Part shown: positions 16,891 to 30,162 of the stretch, in pieces
Position numbering within the stretch: the first letter of the stretch is position 1
Layout: every line of letters begins with the position of its first letter
Source of the DNA: Ursus arctos
Lineage: Eukaryota; Chordata; Mammalia; Carnivora; Ursidae
NCBI RefSeq assembly: GCF_023065955.2
Contig: NW_026622863.1
Span: 44,002,177 to 44,066,176 of the forward strand
DNA: 64,000 nucleotides
Reading direction: 5' to 3'
The notes under the pieces: generated by a model
Database searches by the model: none
Told to the model about the DNA's origin: nothing
What the model saw: only the letters and a program-made list of their open reading frames with translations
Program-made: the position numbers and the translations under genes

Positions 16891-17050
16891 GAACGCCTGG
16901 GTGTCTCAGGTCATAATCCCATAGTCCCGGGATTGATACCGGCATCAGGCTCCCTGCTCAGCGGGGAGTCTGCTTCTGCCTCTGCCCCTCCCCCTGCTCG
17001 TGTTCTCCCTCTCTCTCTCTCTCTCAAATAAATAAATAGAATCTTTATTT
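16891..17050 (+). mobile_element. CAN-SINE, internally deleted
   Basis: GGAACGCCTGGGTGTCTCAG head joined directly to GTCATAATCCCATAGTCCCG; tail AAATAAATAAATAGAATCTT. Confidence 0.9.
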
Positions 17051-17051
17051 T

Positions 17052-17239
17052 TTAAAGACTTTTATTTATTTGACACAGAGAGAAAGAGAAAGCACGAGCA
17101 GGGGGAGCTGCAGAGGCAGAGGGAGAAGCAGGCTCCCCACTGAGCAGGGAGCCCAATGTGGGGCTCGATCCCAGGACCCTGGGATCATGAACTGAGCCAA
17201 AGGCAGATGCTTAACTGACTGAGCCAGCCAGGCGCCCCT
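17052..17239 (-). mobile_element. CAN-SINE, antisense
   Basis: TTTTTTAAAGACTTTTATTT start, CTGAGCCAGCCAGGCGCCCC end. Confidence 0.94.
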
Positions 17240-17790
17240 CAGATACTTTCTTAATATGTAGTAATATTTTGCATAAACATGATTATTTTCCACAATATAT
17301 AAGGTAAGACAGAAGTGAAAATCAGGAAATTAACACAGACGAATCACCATCATCCAACCTAGCTTACCAGTTGTGCCGACACTGTCATACCTCTCATTGT
17401 CCTTTTCCGAATTTGTACGCTATGGGTAGGTACAAGAATTTTTTTTAATGTACAAAAGCTACACGACACAGACAAATGAAATAAATTTTAATTCATTTAA
17501 CAGCCCTGGTGTACCAATGGATGTTAGATTTCTAAGGTCTCCCACTGGAAAAGGAAGACCCCTTATGCCACAGCCCACCCAGGAGTACACAAAGAAGGGC
17601 CCAGAATCCAGGGGCGCCGCTCCAGGTTGAAGCTTGGAAGTGTGGAGAAAGTCCAGTCCTGGAAGGATTCGAACTCGCCCAGATTCGGAGGTCACACAGA
17701 ATGTTGCATCTTCAGAAAAATCCAAGGTAATGCACCATCGCTCCCACACCCACTGCCGAAATTGCAGCGTCTGCAGAGGCCACGGGGAGG
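17240..17790. other. Intergenic, no gene seen
   Basis: No SINE and no recognised coding sequence. The right end grades into the diverged outer flank of the galectin-7 inverted repeat. Confidence 0.4.
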
Positions 17791-18244
17791 CGACGTGTCC
17801 TACATCTCGCACGGATCCCAGGCCAGGAACCCCAGCAAACCCCTCCAAGGGCGTGGCTCCAGACGTTCCCGAGACTCCGGGGCAGGGCCCAACCGCAGTG
17901 AGAGAACTTTGCCAGCCGACCCGGTCCATCTCACAATTAGGGGCCCTGCCATTGCAGAGTGTCGCGCTCACGGAGTCACGACCTCCCTCCAGTCACAGCC
18001 ACTGACAAGCAGCCACCTCCTCCGATCGGAAACGCACGGCCTAGCGGTGGGGGTGACTGGACACTGTGTGTGGGCGCCCACTACCCCAATCCCACCAGTT
18101 GGCACTCGGGCAGGGCCGGGAGCCCAGGTGAAGAAGTGTGGGAATGGGGCTCATGCCCGCACCGGGGACCCAGACGCCTGATCCTCGTGTCCCCCGTCCG
18201 CTCCGCGGGGAGATGCCGCTCTAGTCCGACTCCGGGACAGCTGG
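17790..18244. repeat. Diverged outer flank of the left palindrome arm
   Basis: Colinear but clearly diverged homology with the reverse complement of about 29305-29750. Shared blocks include GGTGGGGGTGACT, ACTGTGTGTGGGCGCCCAC and GGGCGTGGCTCC, with many substitutions and indels between them. Confidence 0.7.
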
Positions 18245-18784
18245 GAGGACGGCGCCGCCCCATCCGCTGCCCAGCCCCACCCCGCGCCAGCCGGCTCCCG
18301 CCACCCACAGGCCCAGCAGCCGCCGCAGAGGGGACAGGAGAGGGGCAGCGGCGCAGGGAGCCCGCACGGGTCCCAGGCCCCGTCTCCCCAGCTCGGGCTC
18401 TCCAGGGCACCAGGCATATGGGGACTCGCTCCCCCGTTGGCAGATGCACCCCTTGGGGCTCCGTCGTTCCGCGCAAAGGGGGCGCCGAGGGGAGCTTGAG
18501 CCCGCTCCGACCCCCAGCAGGTTCCCCCCACCCGCACTACCGCCCGGCTGCCCTGCAAAGTGCGGCTGGAAGACGAGCCAAGACACACCCCTAGCCGATC
18601 GCGACCCTCCAGAGGCCTCCCTAACCTAACACACGCGTCCTCCCAGAGCCGGTCCCGCATCGCGCCTCGGCCGCGGGACCGCTGGGTGACACTTGCTCGG
18701 AGTCGGCACCTCTCTGAACCTGCCTTCCGCGTCTGCACGCAGGAAACACAGACACAGAGGAGGCGCACAGACGTGGGCTGAAAC

Positions 18785-18790
18785 TTTATT
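18785..18790 (-). terminator. Poly(A) signal of LGALS7 (left)
   Basis: AATAAA on the minus strand, 45 bases past the stop codon; mirror image of the signal in the right copy. Confidence 0.93.
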
Positions 18791-18834
18791 TGCCATTCCG
18801 GGGACCCCACTGCCCCGGTCCTCCCGGGGGCGTC

Positions 18835-21039
18835 TCAGAAGATCTTCACGGAATCCAGCCGCAGGTCCCCGCCCACCTCCAGGAGGCGCACGCGCGCCGG
18901 CGGGATGCGGTAGCGGAAGTGGTGGTACTCCGAGTCGCCGACCACCGCCTGCGGGGACAGGGGTCCGCGCTGGAGTGCCGAGGCCGCCCGGGGTGGGGGG
19001 GTTGGGGGGTCCTTCCCGACTCGGCCCGCGCCCTGTGACCTGGGCCCTCCCTCAGCACGCCGGGCCCCGGGCTCCCCGGTGGCAAAATGGGCTCCCGATT
19101 GTTCTACCCGCTTGTCGGGAACGTTCTGTGGGCCGACGGGGTGGCCCAAGACGTGCGTTTTCAGGGTTGGCGGGGGCTGCTCGCTCCGCTTGCGGCGTGC
19201 CCTGCCGCCCTCCTGCCGCTCCCACGGGCAGTGGTGAATGGCCTGGGCGCTGGAGGGTCTGCGGCGCCCCCCGCCCGCTGGCGCGTGTTTCTGGGCCCAT
19301 CTCCCGACCCAGCCTTGCCCTGCCCCAGAGCGTCAGCCTCACACACTGTCAGGGGGAAAACCGGGGCCCCGCTGCCAGGCTAGGGGACACCCACCCTCTG
19401 GGCATTTGGCTCTTGCTCGCTGGTCCTTGCCGCTGCCTCACCCCTGCCTTGTGACACTAGTGGGGATGCACCAGGGGAAGAAGGGGGACTGGGGAAACTC
19501 CAGCCCAGCAGGCCACGCTATGGTTCCCCTCCCCCCAACACAGCCTGCCTGTAGGTGGCAGGGCCCCACCTTGAAGCCTTCTTCCGTGGCGATGAGGAGC
19601 ACATCGAAGGGCTGCCCATGCTGGAAAGGAATGCCTGAGCCACGCTCCTCTCGGCCCCAGGCGCCCTGCTCCAGGGTGTTGAAGACCACAGTGGACTCGT
19701 CCAGGCGGGGGTTGAAATGCAGGGCGGCCTCACTCCCGGGCACCTCACTGCACAGCAGGTTTACGTAGAACCTGGTAGATGGGGGGGGGGCAGATACATG
19801 TCGGAGGCCAAGGACCACCAAGTTAAGATCGAGAACCGATGGACTGCAGCCGCTGGTGGGAAGCCAGCCAAATTTACAGTGACCTCAGACTCACACCACA
19901 GAAGGAGGGCCGTGGACTGGAGGCCAGGACCCAGATTCCAGGGCATCCAAAAACTTCTGGGGACCCTGGACACACCCACCTGCACGAGCGTCGCCCTGCT
20001 ATGGCTTGCGTGCCCCTCAATTTCCCAATCCGCTAAGAGTTGCCATGAGTCATGGTGCCCATGGCCAGGGTGCTCCCCATTCCGAGGGTATCCCCATTCC
20101 TAGAGGGCTAGGAACAGTACCGCGGACCCCATCATTCCAGGCACCGCAGATTCCCAGCAATCCCGCAGTTCCCGGACCCAGGAAGTCTCAGGACTGATTG
20201 CTTGGGTTTCCCAGATGCCCAGGGCACCTCCAGATCACAGGACATATTTCCAGAGTTCCTGGGGATTCGGACTGGGAGTCATAGGATGAGAGGTAGGAAC
20301 CCTGAGATTGCCCTGGAGCCCCCAGATTCCTGGGGACACATAGGCACCCCAACTTGTACCCAGCCATGGGACAAATAAGGGAAGACATGAGATTCCGGAA
20401 AGTCATTGATGGCCTGGGGATTCCAAGACCCTGGTGGACATAGGTGGCTTGAACTCCTTCCCATCTGGGCTGGAAAAAGTCGGGGTCAGCTGAGCCTGGA
20501 CACCTCCCACCATTACCGCTGGGGCCTGGGGGCTCACCTGCCAGCCTTGTCCGGGACCACACCACGAATCCTCATCACAGTGCCGACTCGGATGCCCTCG
20601 GGCAGAGAGGTCTTGTGGGGCACATTCTGCAGGACCAGCGGTGCGGGGACCAAGGCAACCAGCGACGCAGAAGACAGAGACAGATGGGTCAGCCCCAGGC
20701 AGAAAAGGACCAGGACCCAGATCAGCTAAATCGCTGAGAAGAAAGGCCACAGAGAGACAGGAGAGAGAGAGCCAGAGCCAGGCAGAGGTGGGGAGAGAAA
20801 CACACAGAATCAACAGACACACACAGAGAGAGAATCCAAGAGAGGATGGGAGCGTTGGGTTGGGTTGGGTCAACCCAAGAGCCACAGCCCAAGCACTTCT
20901 AGCACACCCTAGCACCCACTTTCTCCTTTCAAACAGGAGATGTCAGGCGGGCCCAGCCCCTCCCCTAGTCCGGTGCAGCCTTGGGTCCAAGCCCCCCAAA
21001 CCCCAAGGCCCCTGAGGCACTCACGGAGCTCCCTGCCAT
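18835..21039 (-). CDS. LGALS7: Galectin-7 (left copy)
   Basis: A prototype galectin binding beta-galactosides, acting in and outside keratinocytes of stratified epithelia in adhesion and apoptosis (family knowledge). Four exons: 21025-21039, 20538-20626, 19570-19771, 18835-18948; total 420 nt, 139 aa. The single carbohydrate-recognition domain shows HFNPR, a V-FN strand and WGREERGSG, the sugar-contacting residues. The N-terminus is MAGSS before NVPHKTSLPEGI, whereas human starts MSN, so exon 1 is two codons longer. The protein is identical to that of the right copy. There is no signal peptide, as usual for galectins. Confidence 0.97.
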
Positions 21040-21089
21040 GGCTGGGACAGTGGGGCCTAAATGGCGCTGGTGGGGATGGCTGCTGGGAC

Positions 21090-21128
21090 CTTAAATAAAA
21101 GCAGGGCGGGGCAGGCCAGGCTGACTCA
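21090..21128 (-). promoter_or_regulatory. LGALS7 (left) core promoter: TATA-like plus AP-1
   Basis: On the minus strand TGAGTCA (21122-21128) is followed by TTTTATTTAAGG, with the TATA-like element at 21090-21097, about 52-58 bases before the start codon. AP-1 suits a keratinocyte gene. Confidence 0.6.
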
Positions 21129-23226
21129 CCCCCCATTTCCACACCCACCGCCCACACCTGGCACAGACCCTGGCCCTGAGGCCACCTGGCCCAGCACCCT
21201 CTTTCTGGGCCCTGTGCCTTCCCTTCACTCCCGAGGGTTCCCAGGGGTGCTGCCCCCCTCCTTTGAGCTAATGACCATAAAGACAGTTCCTAAGGAAATA
21301 CTGGGGACAGAGGGGACCGGGTGAGCCACCATCCATCCAGTCCTGTCTTCCTGCTGCTTGGCAGGGAGAAAAGAGTATTTTGTCTATTTTATCTTGGGAG
21401 ACCTGGGCGTGAGAGGCCGCGCGGGGGGCCACAATCCAGGCCCCCCTCCCAGGCTGGGACCTGCGGCCCAGGGCTGAGGCTGCGCCCCGACTTGCCCGCT
21501 CAGGCCCCGGACCCAGGAGCAGCCGCAGCCCCGGAAGAGGGGCTCCGAGGGCCAGCCGGTTCGCCTGAGGGCCGGCGCTGCGTCCCTGGGGCCGAGAGCA
21601 GGGCCTGGCCCACGGGAAGCCGGAAGCGCGCCTGCAATGCAGGGCAAGAAGGAATGAGAAAGGCCAGCACGTGCCCTTTCTGAGGCCTTGGGCGCGCCTG
21701 CGCACTCCACACCTCCCTGGGCGCTCAGCGGGAGCCCAGCCGCCAAGGGCCTCGGTCACCCCCGTTCTACAGCCAAGGACACGGAGGCTCAGGGAGGGGA
21801 GGCCCTTTGCCCAAAGCACCAGCCTGGGCGCTACCATGTCCGTGTGGCTCTGCCTTTCCTGGACTCGGGCAGTTTCTATCCCTTTTATGTCTTCTGTCCC
21901 TGTGAGTGCCCTGCTCCCTCTCCCGGGCCCTCTGGCTCCCACTCTCTCTCCCGGGTCTCCCTGTGGGCCTCTCTCCTCTAAAGCTCTGTCCCGTTCCACG
22001 TCCCAGAGCCGCGGCCACTCTCCCAGCTAGCTCTCAGGTGTAGGGAGGGCCAGGAGGGGTGTCTAGGACCCACCCACACCCAGACCCTCCTCCACCCAGG
22101 CTCACTGCCAACCCCCATAGCCCAAGACTCCAGGAGAGGAATCCAGGATCCGAAAGGGGCAGGCAGAGGGAGAATGCTGAAAGATGGTTCTGGAAGGCAG
22201 GGAAGAGGCAGGGTGACACAGCTGAGCAGAAACCCCTCGTAGCAGCCCAGCAGCCCTCCCACCCACCTGCACCACCCCACTCCCAGCCCCCACTCCTGCC
22301 CCACCCCACAGGGGGAAGAGGCCTGGGGCAGAGAACAGAATGGAAACTCTGGGTGGAGACAACCAGACTCAACCTGATCCACCACCCGACTGTCCCCCAG
22401 GCCTCCCAGACTCTCCATCCCCCCACCTCACGAGGCACCCAGGTGGGGGCGCCCCTTGGGAGCTAGGGCCTCAGAGAGGGAGGCTGGGCAGTTGGGTTTG
22501 GCCCGGGGAGCGGGGGGAGGTGGCAGAAGCACCCCCATTTTGTAGAGGAGAACACTGAGGCCTGGGGAGGGGCAGCCTCTCAGCCAAGGCCACACAGCAG
22601 GGAAGCAGCCCGGGGCGGGGCGGGGGCCCGGGTGTGGACCAGGGCTGGGCAGCAGGACTTCCAACAGAGGGGCTGGGGGGCCTGAGGCTGGAGCACCAGC
22701 TCCTGAACGGGTCCCAAAATGACGGGTCCGCTACTCCCAGAGCAGGGTGGCCACTGTCTCGGCCTCCTTCTCCCGTGCGATGGATGCGGGCGACTCATGC
22801 TTCTCCTGAGCTCTTCCTTGTGGCTGGATATTTCTTCACACGCTGCCAGCCTGCAAGTCCCAGCTCGCCTTTGGTGTTCGGCCAAACGTTTGCGTTCGAT
22901 CTATTATCCCTTGGATCGCCGGCTCGTTTCTCAGAACTCAGAGATGCGCCACCTCGACGGCTCCTCGTCTCCCGTCTTGATAGTCTTCCTATCAGTTCTG
23001 GAATCATATTTTCTGGAGCATTTTTTTCATTTCCATTTAAGTAGTCAATGTGCTCATTTCTCAATACTCTTCCTTTTCCTGAGCTAGACTCTGCTGCCCT
23101 AAAATCTGCAGGGTGTCACAGGATGAGGATGAGATTTGACAAACGCACAGCTGGGAGCAACCCCCACCCCCAGCAAGATGCCTCGAGCCCCAGAAACAGC
23201 CAGCCCCCTCCACCCGCCCAGGAAGC

Positions 23227-24322
23227 AGTGACATGATCCAAGTCAATTCACCGGCCGCAGGACACGGGGAGGTGGCGGGCAGCTCGACAGAATGCACGCG
23301 GTGTCACTTCTGTGGGTCTTCCGCGAAAAGTGCATAACCCGTGACCAGGATACATCGACCTCCAACCTGCCCAAGTGTCAAGGTCCTGAAAGACAAAGGA
23401 AGACTAGGGAGCCATTCCAGACGGAAGGCAACCGCAACGAAGAAGGCCTGACACCAAAATCAATGCCGGGTTCTGAATTTCTACCCCCACCCCAGGTCCT
23501 GTGGACCAGCTCCCTCTGACACCACCGTGGAGCTGCAGTCCTTGCCCACCACCGTCACCCCAGCTCCCCACCCACCAGAGGCGGCGAGTGCTGCCCCAGC
23601 TGATGGCTGGAGGACCAAACTCCTCAGCTAAGGGAAGGAAGGAAGGAAGGAAGGAAGGAAGGAAGGAAGGAAGGAAGGAAGGAAGGAAGGGAGAAAGGAA
23701 GGGAGGGAGGGAGGAAGGGAGAAGGACAGATGGAAGAAGAGGAGGAGAAAGAAAAAGTCAGTGGATTTCCGCCGCAGGCATGGAAATGTACAACAATGAC
23801 TTCGGACTTGGAAGGATGTATTGGACAATGGAAAGACTGACCACTGAACAAATGGTAAAATCCCAGTGCAGCTTAGAGTATGGAAGAGAGTTCAATGAAC
23901 TCAGTTTATCAGTGGAAGCAAACAGGACAGAAAGGCCTCCCCTCTGCAGGGACAGTTGCTGAAATTCACTAGGGCTAGAAATAGAACCATAAGGCTTGCA
24001 GCAGATTTGGGGCTTAAGAACTAGCCAGAAGATCAAGGTGTCCTTTGCCTCGTTTGAATGTTCCTTTACAAAACCAAAGCAGCCCCTGTGTGATCTTCCC
24101 CATGAACAACAAACAAGCCAAAGTCCCCTACAAGCTGATGCTGGCAGAGCCTGGGATTTTCAATGCCCAGGACCACCGTGGGGACAATGACTTCCTTTTC
24201 ATTCACCTGACTTATTTCCAGAAGGAGGGTGAGGTCAGCCCACCCAGCCTGCTGGCCACCCCTCTTCCTCACGTTGATGCCAAATGAACTCTGTGGCCAT
24301 GAAATGCCGAGGGATGGCGGTG
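23227..24322. other. 1,096 bp palindrome spacer
   Basis: Unique DNA separating the two arms; symmetry axis at 23774/23775. It contains a purine-only tetranucleotide array and otherwise unassigned sequence. Short open frames (for example one of 80 codons at 24045-24287) match no family I know. Confidence 0.85.
23631..23735 (+). repeat. (GGAA)n polypurine tract in the spacer
   Basis: About fifteen near-perfect GGAA units followed by GGGA/GGAGAAGG variants, all purine on the plus strand, ending about 40 bases from the palindrome axis. Confidence 0.97.
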
Positions 24323-26419
24323 GCTTCCTGGGCGGGTGGAGGGGGCTGGCTGTTTCTGGGGCTCGAGGCATCTTGCTGGGGGTGGGGGTTGCTCCCAGCT
24401 GTGCGTTTGTCAAATCTCATCCTCATCCTGTGACACCCTGCAGATTTTAGGGCAGCAGAGTCTAGCTCAGGAAAAGGAAGAGTATTGAGAAATGAGCACA
24501 TTGACTACTTAAATGGAAATGAAAAAAATGCTCCAGAAAATATGATTCCAGAACTGATAGGAAGACTATCAAGACGGGAGACGAGGAGCCGTCGAGGTGG
24601 CGCATCTCTGAGTTCTGAGAAACGAGCCGGCGATCCAAGGGATAATAGATCGAACGCAAACGTTTGGCCGAACACCAAAGGCGAGCTGGGACTTGCAGGC
24701 TGGCAGCGTGTGAAGAAATATCCAGCCACAAGGAAGAGCTCAGGAGAAGCATGAGTCGCCCGCATCCATCGCACGGGAGAAGGAGGCCGAGACAGTGGCC
24801 ACCCTGCTCTGGGAGTAGCGGACCCGTCATTTTGGGACCCGTTCAGGAGCTGGTGCTCCAGCCTCAGGCCCCCCAGCCCCTCTGTTGGAAGTCCTGCTGC
24901 CCAGCCCTGGTCCACACCCGGGCCCCGCCCCGCCCCGGGCTGCTTCCCTGCTGTGTGGCCTTGGCTGAGAGGCTGCCCCTCCCCAGGCCTCAGTGTTCTC
25001 CTCTACAAAATGGGGGTGCTTCTGCCACCTCCCCCCGCCCCCCGGGCCAAACCCAACTGCCCAGCCTCCCTCTCTGAGGCCCTAGCTCCCAAGGGGCGCC
25101 CCCACCTGGGTGCCTCGTGAGGTGGGGGGATGGAGAGTCTGGGAGGCCTGGGGGACAGTCGGGTGGTGGATCAGGTTGAGTCTGGTTGTCTCCACCCAGA
25201 GTTTCCATTCTGTTCTCTGCCCCAGGCCTCTTCCCCCTGTGGGGTGGGGCAGGAGTGGGGGCTGGGAGTGGGGTGGTGCAGGTGGGTGGGAGGGCTGCTG
25301 GGCTGCTACGAGGGGTTTCTGCTCAGCTGTGTCACCCTGCCTCTTCCCTGCCTTCCAGAACCATCTTTCAGCATTCTCCCTCTGCCTGCCCCTTTCGGAT
25401 CCTGGATTCCTCTCCTGGAGTCTTGGGCTATGGGGGTTGGCAGTGAGCCTGGGTGGAGGAGGGTCTGGGTGTGGGTGGGTCCTAGACACCCCTCCTGGCC
25501 CTCCCTACACCTGAGAGCTAGCTGGGAGAGTGGCCGCGGCTCTGGGACGTGGAACGGGACAGAGCTTTAGAGGAGAGAGGCCCACAGGGAGACCCGGGAG
25601 AGAGAGTGGGAGCCAGAGGGCCCGGGAGAGGGAGCAGGGCACTCACAGGGACAGAAGACATAAAAGGGATAGAAACTGCCCGAGTCCAGGAAAGGCAGAG
25701 CCACACGGACATGGTAGCGCCCAGGCTGGTGCTTTGGGCAAAGGGCCTCCCCTCCCTGAGCCTCCGTGTCCTTGGCTGTAGAACGGGGGTGACCGAGGCC
25801 CTTGGCGGCTGGGCTCCCGCTGAGCGCCCAGGGAGGTGTGGAGTGCGCAGGCGCGCCCAAGGCCTCAGAAAGGGCACGTGCTGGCCTTTCTCATTCCTTC
25901 TTGCCCTGCATTGCAGGCGCGCTTCCGGCTTCCCGTGGGCCAGGCCCTGCTCTCGGCCCCAGGGACGCAGCGCCGGCCCTCAGGCGAACCGGCTGGCCCT
26001 CGGAGCCCCTCTTCCGGGGCTGCGGCTGCTCCTGGGTCCGGGGCCTGAGCGGGCAAGTCGGGGCGCAGCCTCAGCCCTGGGCCGCAGGTCCCAGCCTGGG
26101 AGGGGGGCCTGGATTGTGGCCCCCCGCGCGGCCTCTCACGCCCAGGTCTCCCAAGATAAAATAGACAAAATACTCTTTTCTCCCTGCCAAGCAGCAGGAA
26201 GACAGGACTGGATGGATGGTGGCTCACCCGGTCCCCTCTGTCCCCAGTATTTCCTTAGGAACTGTCTTTATGGTCATTAGCTCAAAGGAGGGGGGCAGCA
26301 CCCCTGGGAACCCTCGGGAGTGAAGGGAAGGCACAGGGCCCAGAAAGAGGGTGCTGGGCCAGGTGGCCTCAGGGCCAGGGTCTGTGCCAGGTGTGGGCGG
26401 TGGGTGTGGAAATGGGGGG

Positions 26420-26458
26420 TGAGTCAGCCTGGCCTGCCCCGCCCTGCTTTTATTTAAG
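26420..26458 (+). promoter_or_regulatory. LGALS7B core promoter: AP-1 plus TATA-like
   Basis: TGAGTCA at 26420-26426, a GC-rich stretch CTGCCCCGCCCTGC and TATTTAAG at 26451-26458, then the start codon at 26509. Identical to the left copy, in mirror image. Confidence 0.6.
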
Positions 26459-26508
26459 GTCCCAGCAGCCATCCCCACCAGCGCCATTTAGGCCCCACTG
26501 TCCCAGCC

Positions 26509-28714
26509 ATGGCAGGGAGCTCCGTGAGTGCCTCAGGGGCCTTGGGGTTTGGGGGGCTTGGACCCAAGGCTGCACCGGACTAGGGGAGGGGCTGGGCCCG
26601 CCTGACATCTCCTGTTTGAAAGGAGAAAGTGGGTGCTAGGGTGTGCTAGAAGTGCTTGGGCTGTGGCTCTTGGGTTGACCCAACCCAACCCAACGCTCCC
26701 ATCCTCTCTTGGATTCTCTCTCTGTGTGTGTCTGTTGATTCTGTGTGTTTCTCTCCCCACCTCTGCCTGGCTCTGGCTCTCTCTCTCCTGTCTCTCTGTG
26801 GCCTTTCTTCTCAGCGATTTAGCTGATCTGGGTCCTGGTCCTTTTCTGCCTGGGGCTGACCCATCTGTCTCTGTCTTCTGCGTCGCTGGTTGCCTTGGTC
26901 CCCGCACCGCTGGTCCTGCAGAATGTGCCCCACAAGACCTCTCTGCCCGAGGGCATCCGAGTCGGCACTGTGATGAGGATTCGTGGTGTGGTCCCGGACA
27001 AGGCTGGCAGGTGAGCCCCCAGGCCCCAGCGGTAATGGTGGGAGGTGTCCAGGCTCAGCTGACCCCGACTTTTTCCAGCCCAGATGGGAAGGAGTTCAAG
27101 CCACCTATGTCCACCAGGGTCTTGGAATCCCCAGGCCATCAATGACTTTCCGGAATCTCATGTCTTCCCTTATTTGTCCCATGGCTGGGTACAAGTTGGG
27201 GTGCCTATGTGTCCCCAGGAATCTGGGGGCTCCAGGGCAATCTCAGGGTTCCTACCTCTCATCCTATGACTCCCAGTCCGAATCCCCAGGAACTCTGGAA
27301 ATATGTCCTGTGATCTGGAGGTGCCCTGGGCATCTGGGAAACCCAAGCAATCAGTCCTGAGACTTCCTGGGTCCGGGAACTGCGGGATTGCTGGGAATCT
27401 GCGGTGCCTGGAATGATGGGGTCCGCGGTACTGTTCCTAGCCCTCTAGGAATGGGGATACCCTCGGAATGGGGAGCACCCTGGCCATGGGCACCATGACT
27501 CATGGCAACTCTTAGCGGATTGGGAAATTGAGGGGCACGCAAGCCATAGCAGGGCGACGCTCGTGCAGGTGGGTGTGTCCAGGGTCCCCAGAAGTTTTTG
27601 GATGCCCTGGAATCTGGGTCCTGGCCTCCAGTCCACGGCCCTCCTTCTGTGGTGTGAGTCTGAGGTCACTGTAAATTTGGCTGGCTTCCCACCAGCGGCT
27701 GCAGTCCATCGGTTCTCGATCTTAACTTGGTGGTCCTTGGCCTCCGACATGTATCTGCCCCCCCCCCCATCTACCAGGTTCTACGTAAACCTGCTGTGCA
27801 GTGAGGTGCCCGGGAGTGAGGCCGCCCTGCATTTCAACCCCCGCCTGGACGAGTCCACTGTGGTCTTCAACACCCTGGAGCAGGGCGCCTGGGGCCGAGA
27901 GGAGCGTGGCTCAGGCATTCCTTTCCAGCATGGGCAGCCCTTCGATGTGCTCCTCATCGCCACGGAAGAAGGCTTCAAGGTGGGGCCCTGCCACCTACAG
28001 GCAGGCTGTGTTGGGGGGAGGGGAACCATAGCGTGGCCTGCTGGGCTGGAGTTTCCCCAGTCCCCCTTCTTCCCCTGGTGCATCCCCACTAGTGTCACAA
28101 GGCAGGGGTGAGGCAGCGGCAAGGACCAGCGAGCAAGAGCCAAATGCCCAGAGGGTGGGTGTCCCCTAGCCTGGCAGCGGGGCCCCGGTTTTCCCCCTGA
28201 CAGTGTGTGAGGCTGACGCTCTGGGGCAGGGCAAGGCTGGGTCGGGAGATGGGCCCAGAAACACGCGCCAGCGGGCGGGGGGCGCCGCAGACCCTCCAGC
28301 GCCCAGGCCATTCACCACTGCCCGTGGGAGCGGCAGGAGGGCGGCAGGGCACGCCGCAAGCGGAGCGAGCAGCCCCCGCCAACCCTGAAAACGCACGTCT
28401 TGGGCCACCCCGTCGGCCCACAGAACGTTCCCGACAAGCGGGTAGAACGATCGGGAGCCCATTTTGCCACCGGGGAGCCCGGGGCCCGGCGTGCTGAGGG
28501 AGGGCCCAGGTCACAGGGCGCGGGCCGAGTCGGGAAGGACCCCCCAACCCCCCCACCCCGGGCGGCCTCGGCACTCCAGCGCGGACCCCTGTCCCCGCAG
28601 GCGGTGGTCGGCGACTCGGAGTACCACCACTTCCGCTACCGCATCCCGCCGGCGCGCGTGCGCCTCCTGGAGGTGGGCGGGGACCTGCGGCTGGATTCCG
28701 TGAAGATCTTCTGA
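26509..28714 (+). CDS. LGALS7B: Galectin-7 (right copy)
   Basis: Exons 26509-26523, 26922-27010, 27778-27979 and 28601-28714; 420 nt, 139 aa. The encoded protein is the same as the left copy: NVPHKTSLPEG start, single carbohydrate-recognition domain with HFNPRLD and WGREERGSG, C-terminus LDSVKIF. The gene is divergent from the left copy, with start codons 5.47 kb apart. The human locus has the same inverted pair (LGALS7/LGALS7B), so this arrangement is old. Differences between the copies lie in introns and flanks; I saw none in coding bases. Confidence 0.97.
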
Positions 28715-28758
28715 GACCCCCCCGGGAGGACCGGGGCAGTGGGGTCCCCGGAATGGCA

Positions 28759-28764
28759 AATAAA
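28759..28764 (+). terminator. Poly(A) signal of LGALS7B
   Basis: AATAAA in GGCAAATAAAGTTTCAG, 45 bases past the stop codon, followed by a GT-rich stretch (CTGTGTCTGTGTTTCCTGCG). Confidence 0.94.
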
Positions 28765-29304
28765 GTTTCAGCCCACGTCTGTGCGCCTCCTCTGTGTCTG
28801 TGTTTCCTGCGTGCAGACGCGGAAGGCAGGTTCAGAGAGGTGCCGACTCCGAGCAAGTGTCACCCAGCGGTCCCGCGGCCGAGGCGCGATGCGGGACCGG
28901 CTCTGGGAGGACGCGTGTGTTAGGTTAGGGAGGCCTCTGGAGGGTCGCGATCGGCTAGGGGTGTGTCTTGGCTCGTCTTCCAGCCGCACTTTGCAGGGCA
29001 GCCGGGCGGTAGTGCGGGTGGGGGGAACCTGCTGGGGGTCGGAGCGGGCTCAAGCTCCCCTCGGCGCCCCCTTTGCGCGGAACGACGGAGCCCCAAGGGG
29101 TGCATCTGCCAACGGGGGAGCGAGTCCCCACATGCCTGGTGCCCTGGAGAGCCCGAGCTGGGGAGACGGGGCCTGGGACCCGTGCGGGCTCCCGGCGCCG
29201 CTGCCCCTCTCCTGTCCCCTCTGCGGCGGCTGCTGGGCCTGCGGGTGGCGGGAGCCGGCTGGCGCGGGGTGGGGCTGGGCAGCGGATGGGGCGGCGCCGT
29301 CCTC

Positions 29305-29750
29305 CCCGCTGTCCCGTAGTCGGGACAGGTCCCCGCCCGTGCGCCCCGGGACAGACGCGCACTGGAGCGGCATCTCCCCGCGGAGCGGACGGGGGACACG
29401 AGGATCAGGCGTCTGGGTCCCCGGTGCGGGCATGAGCCCCATTCCCACACTTCTTCACCTGGGCTCCCGGCCCTGCCCGAGTGCCACATGGTGGGATTGG
29501 GGGAGTGGGCGCCCACACACAGTGCTCAGTCACCCCCACCGGTAGGCGGTGATTTTCTGGTCGGAGGGTTGGCTGGCTGTCCCCTCTGCAGCGGCCGTGT
29601 CCCTCAGCCGCGGGGTGGAGCTCCGGGGGGGGGGGGGCGGCTGCGTTCCAGCGCGGGGCGTTGGGCTTGGGTTCCGCTCTCGGGACAGTACGGAGCCACG
29701 CCCCAGGCAGATGCGCCTGGCCCCGAGCCCGCGCCAAGGGTGACACACGT
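29305..29750. repeat. Diverged outer flank of the right palindrome arm
   Basis: Homologous in reverse complement to about 17790-18244 but diverged, including an extra ~20 bases near 29310-29340 and a run of eleven or more G near 29627. Confidence 0.7.
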
Positions 29751-30162
29751 TCCCCTCCCTGGCCTGCTGGGCCCGTGCTGTCTTCACAAGCAGATGTGCA
29801 GTAAGTTCGGACTGCTCTGTGAAGCAGAGCGTAGGGTCTAAGTCTTCAGGACCCATTTTCTGCCCCTTGAGATCCTTTGGGGGAAACCACCTCCCTGCTA
29901 GCTGGTAGTTCAAACTGGTCGATCGTGTCTATGTCTTCTCCATCTTTAATAATTTCTGTCTGGTTGTTCTATCAATTACTGAAAGAGGGTATTGCAACTT
30001 ACAATTTTTCCATGGTCTCTTTGTCATGTATTTTGCGGTCTGTTGTTAATATACGTTTCTACTTGATACATATATTTACTATATTTGTATATGTGTGTGT
30101 GTTTATCTGATGTATTGTCCCTTTTATCACTATGAAACGTCTCTCTTTGTCTCTAGTTCTTT

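Follow-up and report, generated by a model that had tools for sequence, protein, structure and literature searches.

The two galectin-7 genes found in this stretch of Ursus arctos DNA (the window, 64,000 nucleotides in full) lie head to head in a near-perfect palindrome, which we read, with a probability of roughly 0.8, as an old autosomal inverted duplication of the LGALS7/LGALS7B kind whose divergently transcribed copies have been evolving in concert. A galectin-7 gene pair has been described before in human, cow, and dog, and the overwriting of one arm by the other is a known kind of behaviour; what is new here is evidence from within one genome that the bear pair is probably much older than its core looks.

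Two galectin-7 genes in inverted arms

The window sits at 44.00-44.07 Mb on a contig of 58 Mb. Alignment of the arms gives two inverted repeats of 4,982 bases each (18245-23226 and 24323-29304) that are separated by a spacer of 1,096 bases, and each arm carries one galectin-7 gene. The features of this central part are as follows.

18245..23226, + strand: left palindrome arm, with 6 substitutions and 2 indels relative to the right arm
24323..29304, - strand: right palindrome arm, reverse complement of the left
23227..24322, no strand: spacer, whose halves have no inverted homology to each other
18835..21039, - strand: left galectin-7 gene, coding exons 21025-21039, 20537-20626, 19570-19770, 18835-18948
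26509..28714, + strand: right galectin-7 gene, coding exons 26509-26523, 26922-27011, 27779-27979, 28601-28714
24102..24233, + strand: candidate spacer exon, matching an exon of a U. americanus model and followed by a GT donor; prediction only

The arms are more than 99% identical, differing at six of 4,982 positions (18307, 18355, 18418, 18831, 19100, and 22509) and by two indels of one base each, in homopolymers adjoining 19780 and 22622. The initial annotation had counted exactly these eight differences, and the alignment reproduced both the near-perfect inverted repeat and every one of them. None of the eight falls in coding bases, the substitution at 18831 lying 4 bases beyond the stop codon of the left copy, and the coding sequences of the two genes are identical, in keeping with the earlier claim of a single 139-aa protein. 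When a 1,056-base piece of the arm was searched against the bear's own 2.42-Gb assembly in 362 contigs, it was recovered at both expected places, together with a weak third match (74% over part of its length).

Both copies consist of four coding exons, encode 139 amino acids, and are transcribed divergently. Their best PDB matches are human galectin-7 at 228 bits, the next galectins reaching 134 bits at most, and 133 of 134 residues are common to the bear protein and a galectin-7-like model of Ursus americanus. The translation contains HFNPR, VVFN, and WGREER, which fit the galectin carbohydrate-site motifs H-NPR, V-N, and WG-E-R. An AATAAA is present in the 3′ part of the left gene, and Rfam returned no match at gathering scores. 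The third genomic match (L003 1200-1616; C225, around 35.58 Mb) is an intronless galectin-7 retrocopy with 67% amino acid identity and a poly-A tract, in which AAG replaces the ATG start codon and no internal stop occurs; the exon order and joins of the right gene agree with it.

The boundary between spacer and arms is sharp, and comparison with shuffled sequences detected no decayed homology on the spacer side, where the inverted homology of the two spacer halves does not exceed chance (29 of 200 shuffles score at least as high). Within the spacer, 24102-24233 matches the predicted first exon of the U. americanus galectin-7 model P0001 (95% over 44 aa), suggesting that it could be an alternative first exon private to the right-hand copy. 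As a known protein this stretch was rejected, P0001 being its only protein match; it has no PDB match, and the open reading frame that contains it (24018-24287) hits no Pfam family at E 1. Another spacer ORF gave one sub-threshold Pfam match.

The pair is flanked by a calpain gene (- strand, by Pfam and PDB matches) and by a two-domain galectin (- strand, about 36-42 kb), which its motifs and position suggest to be LGALS4, after which follow ECH1 (- strand, weak in Pfam and clear in PDB) and HNRNPL (- strand). This order of calpain, galectin-7 pair, LGALS4, ECH1, and HNRNPL is presumably that of human 19q13, and the opposite orientation of the copies (left -, right +) beside an LGALS4-like gene is as in the LGALS7/LGALS7B pair.

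Divergence along the arms and at their outer ends

An old duplication that has been homogenised should show divergence rising outward, while a single recent duplication or an assembly copy should show it even. The arms were originally taken to stop at 18245 and 29304; their sequences and differences were right, but the end of the repeat was not, since inverted homology reaches further out, at high identity to 18004/29581 with a 37-base gap, and in worn form beyond. Four further features describe these ends.

18004..18244, + strand: left decayed outer arm, by global alignment; a 37-base gap lies opposite
29305..29581, - strand: right decayed outer arm, by global alignment
17774..17959, + strand: left fossil arm end, inverted match to 29584-29769
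29584..29769, - strand: right fossil arm end, inverted match to 17774-17959

From inside to outside, the differing fraction is 0.02% in the inner core (19101-23226; 1 substitution in about 4,125 bases), 0.58% in the outer core (18245-19100; 5/856), 0.85% at 18111-18227 (1/117), 13% at 18004-18110 (14/106), and about 33% in the fossil ends (57/174, that is, 117 of 174 aligned bases identical). The gradient is imperfectly smooth, as 2 of 17 bases differ at 18228-18244, adjoining the 37-base gap in the global alignment; over the whole decayed outer arm 17 of 240 bases differ. With the reservation that the boundaries of the strata were picked after the data had been seen, the steps are marked between outer and inner core (5/856 vs 1/4,125 or so, p 8e-4), between the 13% stretch and its neighbour (14/106 vs 1/117, p 2e-4) or the arm as a whole (vs 6/4,982, p 4e-20), and between the fossil ends and the 13% stretch (57/174 vs 14/106, p 2e-4).

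The fossil match, which on the left side is separated from 18004 by 44 unmatched bases, scores 60, a value reached by none of 300 dinucleotide-preserving shuffles (mean 27, SD 4, maximum 40). Within the 64-kb window it is also the best of 992 comparisons for the left end and of 988 for the right, the highest scores of unrelated segments being 51 and 47. Its extent depends on the scoring, shrinking to 22 of 26 bases under the strictest scheme tried and growing to 17638-17961 / 29582-29868 (185/272 identical) under the loosest. Beyond 17774/29769, inverted homology did not rise above shuffled sequence, the scores of the three comparisons made there being reached by 27, 33, and 27 of 200 shuffles.

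Three readings that dispense with repeated homogenisation can be weighed against this profile. A single inverted duplication in the bear lineage, recent and followed by no gene conversion, would agree with the lone substitution in the inner 4,125 bases and with the sharp inner boundary at the spacer, yet it is most improbable given that divergence along one continuous inverted match runs unevenly from 0.02% to 13% and 33%. An assembly artefact, in which the contig contains a duplicated haplotype or fold-back read, would account for the very high identity of the core; the eight core differences, the outer ends at 13% and 33%, and the 37-base gap cannot arise from copying one sequence, and the available parts of PMC5751359 report two genes each for dog, cow, and human, so we give this explanation almost no weight. 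A two-stage origin, in which the core of an old palindrome was renewed in a single recent large-scale rearrangement and not through repeated conversion, fits the near uniformity of the inner 4 kb (1/4,125) and is somewhat less improbable than the former two, but it remains unlikely, since divergence levels of 0.02, 0.58, 13, and 33% require more than one event. The decaying ends favour the reading implied from the outset by the initial annotation, that of an old pair kept alike by homogenisation and not newly born. Counting against it are the shortness of the fossil match, the break in the gradient at 18228-18244, and the lack of decayed homology toward the spacer.

In the mechanism that we propose for this old, homogenised pair, one arm would serve as template for the other during break repair, with conversion being fullest in the inner 4 kb and weaker toward the outer ends, so that the ends would retain the age of the duplication and the core would look newborn. 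The arms also include about 2.19 kb upstream of each ATG, up to the spacer, with one substitution and one indel between the copies. Since this upstream part is homogenised too, the two genes would be expected to function chiefly by doubling the dose of the same protein, and any difference in their regulation would have to arise in the spacer or in flanking sequence.

G+C is 0.641 and 0.642 in the arms, 0.530 in the spacer, and 0.449 and 0.468 in the flanks, and a same-sized piece taken from base 1 of the sequence has 0.638. Likelihood places abrupt change-points at 17739 (support 17722-17778; from 0.447 to 0.696) and at 29779 (support 29773-29792; from 0.716 to 0.456), nearly coinciding with the limits of the fossil match, and G+C falls again at 22793 and 24757, inside the arms and before their inner ends. 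GC-biased conversion is a possible source of this block. At all five core differences between strong and weak bases (18307, 18355, 18418, 19100, and 22509) the left arm has A/T and the right arm G/C.

SINE insertions common to both arms were considered as a clock and had to be abandoned, as none occurs in 18004-29581. The interspersed elements of the window resemble carnivore tRNA-derived SINEs; SINE-like pieces number zero in these 11.6 kb and 38 after merging outside them, where some elements may count twice, and 4.6 would be expected in the interval with the arm counted once (P 0.01). Adjoining the left arm, 16902-17199 is about 76% identical to its own reverse complement and lies in SINE-like sequence.

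Galectin-7 copies in other mammals

The protein search covered the best 120 of 161 matches, 70 proteins were aligned, and the tree comprises 61 rows, namely 59 of these 70 together with the window and the retrocopy. At residue 132 both bear arms encode arginine (CGG). Among the matches listed, 56 of the 71 rows have Q at this residue, 5 have E, 3 have K, 1 has A, 3 have a gap, and 3 have R, namely the window, the bat Saccopteryx, and a Felis row that is misread; the other carnivore rows listed have Q in 11 of 14, with one gap and two rows misread there. Arginine would by this comparison be the derived state, and the retrocopy, which carries CAG (Q), confirms Q as the presumed ancestral one. 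The change Q132R is thus present in both bear copies and not in the American black bear model, which begins with the spacer exon and therefore stands for the right-hand copy. At this residue the right bear copy is unlike its likely U. americanus orthologue and like its own left neighbour, although this is a comparison of one site, possibly polymorphic, at the protein level and with one U. americanus copy.

Among the matches listed, the tree shows species-level clustering of the copies in Rhinolophus (99/93), Hipposideros (96/81), and Tupaia (100/95), whereas in Equus (100/98) and Moschus (94/72) they cluster at the level of the genus. Within Equus, and for one copy within Moschus, proteins group by copy across species, which points to incomplete homogenisation there. 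Such a tree alone cannot distinguish conversion from repeated duplication. In two bat families, sites 37, 47, 49, and 60 are common by copy across the families, sites 31, 69, 70, 80, 103, 112, and 114 are common by species, and one site (93) is crossed; this pattern would be expected if the pair is old and conversion has affected part of the gene. The two horse copies share 44 of 66 residues over the first half and 60 of 62 over residues 67-128. The whale galectin-7 proteins (P0074, P0080) and the second donkey copy (P0094) carry substitutions at positions that most other rows conserve, looking as if they were under relaxed constraint.

Age of the pair and comparison with known systems

Substitution rates of 2.2e-9 and 1.0e-9 per site per year convert the fossil-end distance of 0.43 into about 98 and 215 My, the 13% stretch into 33-73 My, the outer core into 1.3-2.9 My, and the inner core into about 0.1 My, all of them rough figures from stretches that are short, CpG-rich, and alignment-dependent. 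On the favoured reading the galectin-7 pair cannot be dated from its core sequence, and the ends suggest that the duplication is tens of millions of years old. A pair predating the carnivore-primate split would be compatible with the fossil-end divergence, and the bear and human pairs may plausibly share a common origin. We put at about even odds the fuller scenario, in which a single inverted duplication, no younger than the carnivore-primate split, has persisted on an autosome for some 90-100 My through continual arm-to-arm conversion, the coding sequence and 2 kb upstream being renewed each time and the age being recorded only in the outer few hundred bases. The same homogenised structure could also stem from a bear or carnivore duplication independent of the human one, which we regard as a serious but lesser possibility. 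The protein tree, in which pairs cluster within species or genus, cannot separate one shared event from repeated ones, and the mouse is regarded as single-copy; against this stand the fossil-end distance of 0.43, equivalent to about 98-215 My at the above rates, and a bear neighbourhood whose gene order is presumably that of human 19q13.

Long-lived palindromes with continuing conversion are best known from sex chromosomes. An autosomal palindrome whose strata and fossil ends can still be read would make it possible to measure the reach and frequency of conversion off the sex chromosomes, and it would account for the retention in species of two galectin-7 genes without divergence between them. 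The bear palindrome differs from those of the X and Y in its 5-kb arms next to autosomal genes (given the presumed 19q13 order) and in lacking raised G+C toward the spacer at the inner ends of its arms. Mammalian X/Y palindromes, according to the accessible parts of PMC8981503, have arms kept alike by arm-to-arm gene conversion, and in primate X palindromes the arms are richer in G+C than the flanks; the bear shares with them arms more than 99% identical and genes within the arms. Its arm G+C departs from that of the flanks in the same direction, against which stand the fall in G+C before the inner arm ends and the 0.638 at the left end of the window.

In human, LGALS7 and LGALS7B are neighbouring genes in opposite orientation that encode one identical protein (PMC5751359, PMC8715898, in their available parts), so that the inverted human pair invoked by the initial annotation is in print, and cow and dog likewise have two galectin-7 genes (PMC5751359). 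The bear pair resembles the human one in being adjacent, opposite, and identical in protein, and differs in that the human copies have different putative promoter binding sites (PMC5751359, same parts), whereas in the bear 2.19 kb of upstream sequence lies inside the arms. The available text of PMC5751359 and PMC8715898 mentions no arm ends, strata, or conversion at the human pair, and titles and abstract openings in the literature yielded nothing on gene conversion or concerted evolution at LGALS7/LGALS7B. A likeness in gene arrangement comes from C. elegans and its relatives, where long near-perfect inverted repeats carrying divergent homologous gene pairs have been read as actively maintained (PMC1803023, as far as its available part goes). 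Near-perfect arms with a divergent gene pair are common to both systems, the difference being that the nematode case was compared between species and the bear case is known from one genome.
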